A stretch of DNA of 39,530 nucleotides from an uncultured Methanobrevibacter sp. (GTDB taxonomy: Archaea > Methanobacteriota > Methanobacteria > Methanobacteriales > Methanobacteriaceae), in the NCBI GenBank assembly GCA_902764015.1, contig CACWUH010000004.1, positions 1-39,530 of the forward strand. The letters are read 5' to 3'. Position 1 is the first letter of the stretch; the number at the start of each line of letters is the position of its first letter. The position numbers were made by a program, and so were the translations under genes. Positions 27,602 through 32,373 of the stretch are shown one piece after another. The notes beneath the pieces were generated by a model. That model was given only the letters and a program-made list of their open reading frames with translations, ran no database searches and was not told where the DNA came from.

Positions 27602-30187
27602 TTGATTCTGCTGATGTTTTTTAGTATTGCATGCGTAAGCGCTGCTGACGACAACCAGACGGATGAAGTGGCCATACAGGATGATACAATTTCACAAGAC
27701 ATATTGACTGAAGACGATAGTGATTTCGGCAATTTTTCAAGTTTAAAGGAAGAAGTTTCCAAAAGTCAGGGATTTAAATATCTGGAACTGGACAAGAACT
27801 ATAAATTCGACCGAGAATCAGACCCTGATTTGAACAATGGGGTCAAAATCGATATTGATGACTTTGTAATCGACGGTAAGGGTTATGAGGTAAGCGGAAA
27901 TGGTGAAGCCAGGATATTTGATATTCAGGCAAACAATGTCACTTTGAAAAATATCTATTTTATCAATGGAAATTCGAGTTCCAATGGGGGAGCGGTATAT
28001 TTCAATGGCAACGGAACTGTGGAAAACTGTTACTTCACAGATAATGTCGCAGCGAATAATGGTGGTGCAATCTATTTCAATGGAGCAGGAACAGTAATCG
28101 GTTGCGGATTTACAGCCAGTGCCGCAGCGAGTGACGGTGGAGCAATCTATTTCAAAGGAACAGGAAATCTGACAGATTGTTATTTCGACAAGAACATGGT
28201 TGATGGGGACAATGTTCATGGTGGTGCGGTCTATTTCAATGATGATGGGGATATGGCAGGTTGTAACTTCACAGAAAACCAGGCACATGGAATAGTTAGT
28301 ACTGGTGGTGCAGTCTATTTCAACGGCAATGGAAACGCATTTGATTGCAGTTTCACCGATAACCAGGCAAATGGAGAGAACTACAGTTATGGAGGAGCAT
28401 TGGCCTTCAATATGGAGGGTAATGGAATTGGTAATATAGATTACTGTAACTTCACCAACAACCAAGTAACAACTGCAGATTATATATCAGGATTGGCTCT
28501 TGGCGGAGCAGTGGAAATTCGAAACAAAAGGACTGTTGTGACCAATTCTCAATTTACAAGCAACTCCGCATCGAATGGAGGTGGAGCAATCGATTTAGGC
28601 TATGGAACAATAGCCAACTGTAGCTTCACATACAACACTGTAACCGATGCAGATGATAAAAGAGGTGGAGGAGCAATATACCTGTCCTTTGGAAATGTAA
28701 CCGATTGTGACTTCACTGAAAACGTGGCATGTGGCCAATCCGCTTGCGGTGGAGCAATCTGTGTTGACAAGGATGCTGATGGAAATATTACAGGCTCCAG
28801 ATTCACAGGCAATAACGCTATAAACGGCGGTGCAATCTGTTTCTATAAGGATGGAAGCATAGATGACTGTAACTTCACACACAACCAGGCATCAAGAGGA
28901 GGAGCAATTTATTTCGAAAGTAACGCAATTGTGACCAACTCCCAATTCAACAATAACGCTGCACTCTTTGACATTTATTATAGTGGTGGAGCGATATATG
29001 TTTCCAATAACGGAACAATAGATTCCTGTGAATTCACAGGCAATGCTGCTTGGTATGGCGGAGCTGTGGCAGCCAATAATGGAACAATAACAAACTCCAA
29101 CTTCACAGACAACTGGGCAATTAATGGAGGAGCCTTAAACGCTGGTGACCTTGTGGTATCTGATTCCAACTTCACAAACAATAAGGCAGACACTGGGGGT
29201 GCAATCAGCATTTACGGCGATTTGACAGTCAATGGAGGCATTTTTGAAGGCAATGTCGCAACCGATGGGACCAACAATATTGCTTCAAATCGCAATGGAA
29301 AAATAATACTGAATAACACCACTCCAAAGGATCTTGGGCCATTTTATCTTGCAGGTCTGTCTGCAACAGTCAGCAACATTACCTATGGTGGCGTTGTAAA
29401 CATCATGGCCAATGTAACCGATATGTATGGAAATCCAATCAAAAACGGCACAGTATCAGTGACAATCAACTCCAAAACATATTCCGCAACAATTGATAAT
29501 GGAACCGCAACAATAGATGTTCCTAAGTTGAATGCCGGAACATACAATGGCATCGAGGTTGTCTACAATGGAAATGGAACTTACGCTAAATCCTTCGAGG
29601 AGGTGGACTTCACTGTTTCAAAGGCAAATGCCGCAATAACTGCAGGTGATGCAAGCTACATCATCAATTATGATGGATCATACTCAGCAACACTTAAGGG
29701 TGTAGTCGGCGAGAAAGTTATATTCACCTTGAACGGCAAGAATATCGGTTCAGCAGTTACCAATGCAAAGGGTGTTGCAACAATAAAGCTAACGGCCAAA
29801 ATCCTGAAAACTGCAAAAGCCGGAACCAGGAATCTGATTATCAAATTAAGCTCCAGCAACTACAATCCGGCAAGCAAAACCGTGAAAATAAAAATCAACA
29901 AGGAAAAAACAAAAATAGTTGCCAAGAAGAAAACCTTCAAAAGGAAAGTCAAAACCAAAAAATATTCCATAACCTTGAAAAACAGCAAGGGCAAGGCAGT
30001 CAAGAAGGTAAAGGTCACTATCAAGATAGGCAAGAAAACCTTCAAGGCAAAAACAAACGCTAAAGGGAAGGCTGTCTTTAAAATCAAGAAAATGACCAAA
30101 AAAAGAACCTACAAGGCAAAGGTCACCTTTAAAGGCAATGCTTACTACAACAAGGTAACAAAAAAAGTTAAAATTAGAATCAAATAG
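27602..30187 (+). CDS. Adhesin-like secreted beta-helix protein with Ig-like and basic C-terminal domains
   Basis: This 861-residue protein is a cell-surface adhesin-like protein of the Methanobrevibacter type. A hydrophobic signal core (ILLMFFSIACVSA) is followed by an acidic stretch, then from about 100 to 560 a right-handed beta-helix of roughly 25-30-residue repeats with the pattern GGAIYF...C.FT.N.A. An Ig-like (Big-1 type) domain lies at about 590-680, another at about 685-765, and the final 100 residues are a lysine-rich Ig-like domain that should bind acidic wall polymers. The TTG at 27602 is the only standard start, has no good ribosome binding site, and gives no positively charged n-region; upstream codons LYS-SER-LEU follow a TGA at 27578. 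The start may be damaged or non-standard. Confidence 0.82.
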   Translation: MILLMFFSIACVSAADDNQTDEVAIQDDTISQDILTEDDSDFGNFSSLKEEVSKSQGFKYLELDKNYKFDRESDPDLNNGVKIDIDDFVIDGKGYEVSGNGEARIFDIQANNVTLKNIYFINGNSSSNGGAVYFNGNGTVENCYFTDNVAANNGGAIYFNGAGTVIGCGFTASAAASDGGAIYFKGTGNLTDCYFDKNMVDGDNVHGGAVYFNDDGDMAGCNFTENQAHGIVSTGGAVYFNGNGNAFDCSFTDNQANGENYSYGGALAFNMEGNGIGNIDYCNFTNNQVTTADYISGLALGGAVEIRNKRTVVTNSQFTSNSASNGGGAIDLGYGTIANCSFTYNTVTDADDKRGGGAIYLSFGNVTDCDFTENVACGQSACGGAICVDKDADGNITGSRFTGNNAINGGAICFYKDGSIDDCNFTHNQASRGGAIYFESNAIVTNSQFNNNAALFDIYYSGGAIYVSNNGTIDSCEFTGNAAWYGGAVAANNGTITNSNFTDNWAINGGALNAGDLVVSDSNFTNNKADTGGAISIYGDLTVNGGIFEGNVATDGTNNIASNRNGKIILNNTTPKDLGPFYLAGLSATVSNITYGGVVNIMANVTDMYGNPIKNGTVSVTINSKTYSATIDNGTATIDVPKLNAGTYNGIEVVYNGNGTYAKSFEEVDFTVSKANAAITAGDASYIINYDGSYSATLKGVVGEKVIFTLNGKNIGSAVTNAKGVATIKLTAKILKTAKAGTRNLIIKLSSSNYNPASKTVKIKINKEKTKIVAKKKTFKRKVKTKKYSITLKNSKGKAVKKVKVTIKIGKKTFKAKTNAKGKAVFKIKKMTKKRTYKAKVTFKGNAYYNKVTKKVKIRIK
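27980..29290 (+). repeat. Beta-helix repeat array inside the adhesin gene
   Basis: About 17 imperfect units encode GGA(I/V)YF, a turn, then C.FT.N.A or S.FT.N.A, spaced roughly 60-90 bases. They are diverged, so recombination between units would be limited. Confidence 0.7.
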
Positions 30188-30219: not shown

Positions 30220-30813
30220 TTAGTTATTGTACAGATAATCCTTGATGTTGATACCGCATGAAGGGCATTCCTCTTCACCGATTTTCAACCTGCTTTTGCA
30301 CTTAGGACAGAAGTTGAGCTGAACCTTGTACGTTTTACTTTGATCAATTATAATATTGACCTCTATTCTTTCGGTGATGTGTGATTTCAAAATGGATTTG
30401 TCCCAATCATTGTCCATAAGGAGCTTTTTGTAGTAGAATGCCTCGGTCATCGTGTCGTAATGGCCTATGATGTCGTCGCCTTTTTTGATGTAGAATTTCC
30501 TTATCTTATGGTCAAAAAGTATTTCCCCTTCCCTTTCCTTTTTGTTGAATTTCGTTCCCTTTATTCTGCCCTTGGGTCTTTTTTCGGGAAAAGGGGGCAG
30601 CTCCATATTTTCATACTTGTTTTCAAGGTCGCATTCGACAAGCAAATCATAATCGAAATTGCAAAAGAACAGAGCATCCCTTTCATATAAAGCATCAGAT
30701 AATTTACTGAACTCTCCATAATCCTTGTTATTGTATTTGACACGGTATACGTTGCCGGTCTTTACGATATTCCTGTAGAAGTATCTTATTTCCTGGGAGT
30801 TGATAGTAATCAC
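30220..30813 (-). CDS. Zinc-ribbon protein with duplicated DNA-binding-like module
   Basis: This 197-residue protein has two related modules: residues about 22-57 (VYRVKYNNKDYGEFSKLSDALYERDALFF...) and about 106-139 (KFYIKKGDDIIGHYDTMTEAFYYKKLLMDNDWD). Each reads as three short strands then a helix with (A/E)AxxxRD-like residues, a layout I associate with AP2-type DNA-binding domains found in many Methanobrevibacter proteins. The C-terminus is a zinc ribbon with cysteines at 169, 172, 183 and 186. The start is probably GTG at 30813; AGGTGAT overlaps it, so an internal non-standard start cannot be excluded. Function unknown; nucleic-acid binding is inference. Confidence 0.75.
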   Translation of the reverse strand: MITINSQEIRYFYRNIVKTGNVYRVKYNNKDYGEFSKLSDALYERDALFFCNFDYDLLVECDLENKYENMELPPFPEKRPKGRIKGTKFNKKEREGEILFDHKIRKFYIKKGDDIIGHYDTMTEAFYYKKLLMDNDWDKSILKSHITERIEVNIIIDQSKTYKVQLNFCPKCKSRLKIGEEECPSCGINIKDYLYNN

Positions 30814-31095: not shown

Positions 31096-31227
31096 TTAAT
31101 TTTCTTTGTTTCTTGAATTTTCGAGTTTCATTTCCATTTCTTCAATTTCTCTCATTTTACGTTCTTTTCTTTCTTTAAGTATTTTTTCCCAACTTGCTCT
31201 TGCTCTTTCTTTTGGTACGAAAAACAT
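31096..31227 (-). CDS. Small charged protein of 43 residues
   Basis: This short frame begins MFFVPKERARASWEKILKER and continues as a charged helix to a TAA. GGTGA lies four bases before the ATG, a good ribosome binding site. It starts 38 bases after the stop of the proteasome-like gene on the same strand, so it could be the last gene of that operon. After the TAA the same frame stays open for another 46 codons to 30955, including an ATG at 31083 and a KLEVEEVNAREKKEKKK stretch. It may thus be a truncated 90-residue protein. No family is recognised; the lysine/glutamate bias makes chance possible. Confidence 0.5.
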   Translation of the reverse strand: MFFVPKERARASWEKILKERKERKMREIEEMEMKLENSRNKEN

Positions 31228-31265: not shown

Positions 31266-32373
31266 TTAAATGATTTCATTGTTGAATTTAATCCATTTGA
31301 AGCCATTGGCTTTTGTCATTAATGAGATGTGACTATTCATGCTCACATATTCATCTTCTGAAGATATTTTCTGTTTCATTGCTGTTAAACGAATTATTTC
31401 ATCTGCTAAAATACAAAGTAAGTGATTTGGAATGAATTCTATTGATTTTGAAGTTTCACATATGCCTTTTGATTTGAAATTAATAATTTCATCATTAACA
31501 TCTGAGTATTCAGTTGTAATTGTGTTTTCAACGATTTCTATAATTTTATCATGTGTGTTAATTTTTTCTTCTTTGAGCTTTGATTTTAATCTATGAACTA
31601 TTACTTCATTTGTTTCATTAATATATTTGCTAATAAAATCAATAAACTCATCATGCACTCCTGTAAAGAAAGCATAACCTTCTTCGTTAATAGCATAAAT
31701 TCTTATGAGAGTGTCTTCAAAATCAATTTTGGATTCGAGTTCCTCATAGATTATTCCATCGTGGTCATTGCAGTGGGGCATTGATTTCAAAATATGATGG
31801 ATAGGGACTGTTTATATTATGTCCGGATATTATCACTCCGGTTCCTTCATATTTAAGATTCCATGAAAACATTTGCCAAAGAAGTTCTGTGTATTTTTCT
31901 TTGTCTTTGTTTTCAGGAATGATATCTTCAAATTCATCATTAAATGAGGAATATTTTTTAATGAAAGGATATGTTCTCCTTTTCCTTCTGGTTTCAATGA
32001 CATTATCAAAGCTGTTTTCTGCAATTTCAACTTTCAAATCTTCTTTAAATTTGTCAGCAACGAATTCAATGTATTCATCACATGATGATGTGGGACAATA
32101 CTTGGCCAAAAAGTCAATGAACTTGTTTTTGATTTCTTCAATTGTTTTCAGCTTTTCAAAGTCAGTATTTCTAATGAACTCATTGATAATTGTTTCCATT
32201 GGAATATTTTCGAATTCCATATTGCCGTTTATCATCATCTGTGCGGGATGAATGTCGGATAATTTGTAGATCTTTTGCATGCCTTCGTATTTCTTGTCCA
32301 TAGGTGTTGTCAAGCCATCATCACTTGCAAAAATATGTCTTCTTAAATTAACGATAGTAAACTGTACTGTCAT
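31266..32373 (-). pseudogene. Proteasome-like Ntn-hydrolase protein split by a frameshift
   Basis: Two overlapping frames, 31765-32373 and the frame ending at 31266, appear to be one gene of about 368 codons disrupted by a +1 shift near 31767-31800. The first begins MTVQFTIVNLRRHIFASDDG from the ATG at 32373 (GTGAT just upstream), placing Thr directly after Met. Counting that Thr as 1, Asp is at 17 and Lys at 33, the catalytic spacing of proteasome beta and HslV subunits. KIYKLSD and ETIINEF then resemble uncharacterised proteasome-like proteins of bacteria. The second half ends LTAMKQKISSEDEY...GFKWIKF, resembling the C-terminus I recall for that family. It is not the standard 20S beta subunit. 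Assembly error or programmed frameshift remain possible. Confidence 0.65.

Follow-up and report, generated by a model that had tools for sequence, protein, structure and literature searches.

In 2021, Fuchs, Alva, and Lupas described 22 new proteasome homologues (PMC8665760). PMI-4, a proteasome homolog with multiple insertions, carries long insertions after helices H1/H2 and between helices H3/H4 and was represented by about 500 sequences (PMC8665760). Its distribution was given as broad among bacteria, with additional occurrences in Euryarchaeota and phages, and HDY66466.1 is the published representative (PMC8665760). No genomic context hinting at function was reported for the new homologues (PMC8665760). 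The methanogen protein connectase, a monomeric proteasome homologue, ligates a specific substrate (PMC8665760). Hotspots of antiviral cargo are known in phages and satellites, for example, in P2/P4 (PMC9122126).

Here we analyze a gene of a proteasome-related family in a 39,530-nucleotide stretch of DNA from an uncultured Methanobrevibacter sp. (contig CACWUH010000004.1 of assembly GCA_902764015.1), referred to below as the window. The enzyme family is most probably PMI-4, to which it was matched by described architecture and distribution rather than by published sequences. PHI, which is described as close in sequence to proteasome subunits and for which no phages are listed (PMC8665760), was set aside. 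Later papers on PMI-4 were not found in the open-access literature, subscription journals and preprints being outside the scope of that search.

The enzyme gene and its frame break

The gene, at 32373..31266, is on the minus strand, a detail absent from the preliminary description of this DNA, with its start ATG at 32373 and the stop codon of a second frame at 31266. The features of the locus are as follows.

31776..32373, minus strand: N-terminal part of the enzyme (199 aa), with Thr1, Asp17, Lys33, helices H1/H2, and the ISGHN...PS strand pair
inside 31776..32373, minus strand: most of the first helical insertion
32368..32370, minus strand: codon of Thr1, the predicted nucleophile after removal of Met
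32320..32322, minus strand: codon of Asp17
32272..32274, minus strand: codon of Lys33
zone 31770..31800, minus strand: one-base move of the frame relative to the intact orthologue
31266..31790, minus strand: C-terminal part of the enzyme, read in the second frame and ending at the stop codon, with the second helical insertion and the last strands
31227..31096, minus strand: partner open reading frame (ORF) of 43 aa, MFFVPKERARASWEKILKERKERKMREIEEMEMKLENSRNKEN, about 40 nt behind the enzyme; a similar ORF lies behind the orthologue L195

The window gene reads MTVQFTIVNLRRHIFASDDGLTTPMDKKYEGMQKIYKL and has the Met-Thr start, with Asp17 and Lys33 counted from that Thr, that had been reported for it. 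It had further been proposed that the second frame continues the first, that the gene is split by a frame break, and that the joined protein would have about 368 residues, and all three points agree with what was found here. A profile of the family matched the N-terminal part at model positions 1 to 241 (1.7e-26) and the C-terminal part at positions 254 to 408 (2.6e-21), and these consecutive positions indicate that the two parts are successive segments of one protein. A syntenic orthologue in genome G135 (L195), which shares an amidohydrolase on one side and a 197-aa protein on the other, is a single frame of 367 aa that aligns across both window frames. Its residues 1 to 198 align to 32373-31780 with 68% identity, and residues 200 to 367 align to 31775-31269 with 70% identity. 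In each frame, most differences from this orthologue affect third codon positions (102/164 in the N-terminal frame and 80/136 in the C-terminal frame), with pS of 0.75 and 0.64 versus pN of 0.17 and 0.17 in the two parts; a split gene is therefore indicated beyond chance. Since both parts have kept this coding pattern, the break is either recent or an assembly error.

The latter would mean that the gene is intact in the organism, an explanation which concerns the lesion only and fits any reading of the function. The constrained coding evolution of both parts is consistent with it, as is the state of the draft genome, which is fragmented (156 contigs) and 84% complete. However, when neighboring window genes were compared with their syntenic relatives as a control for frame breaks, by tblastn of G135 and G109 genes against the window, all other compared genes were in one frame, and the sole split gene was the enzyme, between 31780 and 31775. 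The same genome has another family copy (contig C1; L215, 15174-16614), which is also split, at a different place. Breakage likewise recurs in other genomes: the orthologue in G109 is split as well, and among the 42 Methanobacteriaceae copies inspected, 13 carry breaks, in many different places. This concentration of breaks in the enzyme family argues against general assembly noise, and we regard an error as unlikely. A C-terminal remnant of a further family copy was observed after the second copy on C1.

The preliminary description had left room for a +1 read-through, and programmed +1 frameshifting that joins the two frames in translation would be compatible with the coding constraint that persists in both parts. 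The intact orthologue, however, needs no shift, other broken copies break at other positions, and the reading frame is uninterrupted in 78 of the 80 best genomic relatives and in 80/80 viral relatives. On the strength of the intact syntenic orthologue and the differing break positions, programmed recoding was rejected as extremely improbable. The frameshift looks like a lesion, and because of the one-base change of frame read from the DNA, the window copy probably no longer yields an active full-length enzyme.

Elsewhere in the window, positions 27602-30187 encode a large adhesin-like repeat protein that the compared G135 genes leave uncovered, save for a C-terminal match at 29708-30184; the G135 ORF responsible for this match sits elsewhere on its contig. 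The protein encoded at 30220-30813 on the minus strand (197 aa) has a zinc-ribbon-like motif, CPKC...CPSC, at its C terminus and is kept as a neighbor in G135 and G109 at 86-88% identity. The window gave no hits in Rfam and tRNA scans.

Fold, catalytic residues, and distribution of the family

The position after Met in the alignment of 161 distinct intact relatives is Thr in 159/160 and Ser in 1, and the aligned columns hold Asp in 161/161 and Lys in 161/161. The distance from Thr to Lys exceeds 33 in some members because of a variable hairpin, with Lys in the same alignment column. The proposal that T1/D17/K33 is conserved among homologues is thus well founded.

An Ntn-hydrolase fold had also been proposed, and structure prediction agrees. 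AlphaFold, given a 67-row alignment, modeled the intact Methanobrevibacter relative L031 with a pLDDT of 87.8 and a pTM of 0.83. In comparison with the PDB, this model gave 199 matches at E<=0.001, and the best 50 listed were all 20S proteasome subunits. The matches to 20S subunits had a probability of 1.00 with TM-scores by target length of only ~0.3-0.58, as the query carries large insertions. The best viral structural match was a phage "proteasome beta type-2 subunit." The model is consistent with the four-layer alpha-beta-beta-alpha proteasome fold, and its helices 98-158 and 251-329 correspond to the insertions after H1/H2 and between H3/H4.

Sequence similarity to known proteasome families is marginal. 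TIGR03634 matched one member below its cutoff (2e-4, over residues 2-56), as did PF00227 (0.013, one member). An hhalign comparison with methanobacterial proteasome beta subunits was weak, with a narrow template alignment, and paired the N-terminal catalytic stretches. Scanning the enzyme's own genome with PF00227 and TIGR03634 did not retrieve the enzyme and did find separate, ordinary alpha and beta subunit genes, in keeping with the earlier view that the protein is distinct from the 20S beta subunit. By curated model score and by the length of ~200 aa expected of 20S subunits, the enzyme falls outside that group. We conclude that it is an Ntn-hydrolase of the proteasome superfamily and no 20S subunit.

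The window parts had no reliable match in searches of Pfam, NCBIfam, and PDB sequences, and the family itself is absent from Pfam and NCBIfam. A HEPN/RES N-terminal domain (PF18870), which scored 20.5 bits against a cutoff of 27.4 with the C-terminal part only and was not listed for intact members in the domain search, was discounted. Matches of the family profile to cullin and apolipoprotein were attributed to general helical similarity.

Relatives were found in 20 of the 100 genomes of the same taxonomic family that were searched, mostly as single open frames of ~370-450 aa beginning MT(S/A)E, and their presence in the genus is patchy (20/67 genomes). The preliminary description had placed the family in a methanogen; its range proved wider, taking in bacteria, archaea, phages, and satellites. 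Scanning GTDB genomes yielded 308 relatives, the best 80 of which cover at least 21 bacterial and archaeal phyla. For intact members, the matches to PHROG 5990 extend along almost its entire profile, at 1e-78 to 1e-124. A quick tree required 8 changes between archaeal and bacterial rows and 11 between mobile and chromosomal ones, numbers that paralogy or binning errors may inflate. The Methanobacteriaceae rows form one supported group on this tree, and recent mobility inside that lineage is not indicated. Because of this grouping, the lineage may have gained the gene once and then expanded it. Genome G109 contains eight enzyme matches, of which several are disrupted or fragmentary.

The small partner and the genomic setting

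Directly behind the enzyme, 142 of 153 loci have a small ORF on the same strand, defined as one with an ATG start and 40-95 aa, beginning between -50 and +55 nt from the enzyme stop. As a control, such an ORF follows 70 of the 414 ORFs of 300-600 aa in the same loci (17%; Fisher p 2e-65, which is nominal, the loci being related). A partner profile built from one half of the loci recognizes the partner in the other half. Significant matches outside the strict positional range start 71-137 nt before the enzyme stop on the same strand and were read as the same ORFs with earlier starts. After profile iteration, the partner was recognized in 72/78 genomic loci, and annotations of satellites, phages, and a plasmid place it after the enzyme. 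In the window, a GGTG stretch upstream of the partner ORF could serve as a ribosome-binding site. This small gene, near-constant behind the enzyme, seems not to have been described before, and the preliminary description of this DNA had overlooked it.

The commonest partner consensus is ..kxyxSxxEfekxyFPks....DpxxlGxxlAxesLxkirxxL, and partners of the methanogen type often start with M[LIFN]F[VI]P. Phage partner types diverge further in sequence with their position kept. Partners diverge faster than enzymes, with a median partner identity of 33% at 50-60% enzyme identity. Small ORFs after the enzyme in L034, L040, L012, and L018 resembled a RelE-type toxin-antitoxin pair when inspected by eye.

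One explanation of this arrangement is that the small partner itself is the substrate of the enzyme, which would be a connectase-like peptide ligase or a site-specific processing enzyme. Connectase sets a precedent in methanogens (PMC8665760), the partner is small, dedicated, and adjacent to the enzyme in nearly all loci, and tandem-duplicated partner ORFs stand behind two enzymes (L004, 647-995; L207, 510-1003). However, no recognition motif conserved across all partners was found, and the insertions occur at places different from those in connectase. Docking was also without confidence: in an AlphaFold model of enzyme and partner, built by translating past the stop codon at a locus that has both genes in one frame, the partner was placed with a pLDDT of 42-72. 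We therefore consider this explanation quite unlikely.

The enzyme was found in 13 phage records, 7 of which are Streptococcus satellite phages, and on 10 plasmids and 162 IMG/VR contigs. In the two Streptococcus satellites inspected, the enzyme-partner pair makes up the element's last genes; in prophage Javan85, the enzyme gene comes last, after the lysin, and in a Providencia phage it precedes the holin. E. coli prophages present two settings, one with the enzyme on the opposite strand, flanked by Q and the lysis genes, and the other with the enzyme beside an HTH gene on the repressor side. Intact enzymes are encoded in E. coli prophages at L218 (7957-9240) and L219 (10786-12189), where they are annotated as hypothetical proteins, and DNA of the phage query had a match in 22 of 5,426 E. 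coli genomes.

It might alternatively be supposed that the enzyme is a quality-control or housekeeping peptidase of the host, like HslV, Anbu, or BPH, that the small ORF encodes its assembly chaperone or adaptor, and that phages merely acquire the pair. Many chromosomal copies do lie amid housekeeping and ordinary metabolic genes, and three Methanobrevibacter genomes share the syntenic location. A housekeeping role accords poorly, however, with patchy presence in the genus, with the frequent breakage of copies, and with carriage on minimal satellites, and no conserved unfoldase or other constant neighbor was seen among the inspected neighborhoods. We judge such a role unlikely.

Known defense genes were not clearly enriched in PADLOC scans of near versus far neighbors, a coarse comparison in which families rather than proteins were tallied. 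PADLOC-DB models searched against five members gave no convincing match, the one weak match being helical (LeoBC, 2.5e-4).

Proposed function and comparison with known systems

For the window, we lean toward a mobile conflict cassette of two genes, a threonine hydrolase and a dedicated small partner, of which this would be a decayed copy. In an intact copy, removal of the methionine would expose Thr1 with no propeptide, and Asp17 and Lys33 would complete the catalytic set. The two large helical insertions probably prevent assembly of a normal 20S barrel. The enzyme may be an active protease or peptide ligase, with the small protein as its dedicated inhibitor, sensor, or substrate, and the pair may serve conflict between mobile elements, for example, in superinfection exclusion, the enzyme being released or redirected upon infection. 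A conflict role would explain carriage as cargo, fast partner divergence, multiple copies, and repeated loss, and it is because cargo positions, patchiness, partner divergence, copy number, and frequent loss fit together in this way that we favor the conflict cassette. Against it count the lack of clear enrichment of defense genes, the low-confidence docking, the weak sequence similarity to proteasomes, the many housekeeping neighbors, and the tree, which does not indicate recent mobility within Methanobacteriaceae. More broadly, and with greater reserve, we suggest as a possibility that bacteria and archaea share a hitherto unrecognized phage- and satellite-borne immune or toxin-antitoxin-like system, in which a tiny hypervariable partner holds, senses, or processes the effector, a threonine protease or ligase of the proteasome fold.

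The PMI-type homologues were published as functional blanks lacking an informative context. A near-constant partner, together with carriage on satellites and prophages that include those of E. coli, makes a conflict role of a proteasome-like hydrolase testable in laboratory strains. If such a role is true, the proteasome fold would join prokaryotic immunity through a new kind of paired enzyme.

Like the antiviral hotspots of the P2/P4 type (PMC9122126), the enzyme pair occupies accessory positions of phages and satellites; it differs from their cargo in that it is not a PADLOC-DB system and that its antiviral activity is hypothetical. PHROG 5990, which intact enzymes match almost end to end, has no named function and carries no functional label. 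The fold and the catalytic residues are common to the enzyme and to the 20S beta subunit, HslV, Anbu, and BPH, whereas the enzyme is about twice as long, contains two large helical insertions, is only marginally similar to them in sequence, and is followed by the small partner. Connectase resembles it as a divergent proteasome homologue without a propeptide that is found in methanogens but is of limited distribution in archaea and carries its signature insertion between strands S3 and S4 (PMC8665760). With PMI-4, the enzyme has in common the proteasome-like fold, T1/D17/K33, two long insertions, the missing propeptide, and the wide bacterial spread plus occurrence in Euryarchaeota and phages (PMC8665760, Table 1). 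The published account offers no informative context for PMI-4, whereas here a small partner ORF and cargo positions were found. The enzyme family is thus one already published and functionally blank, to which the present analysis adds the small partner and the cargo pattern.
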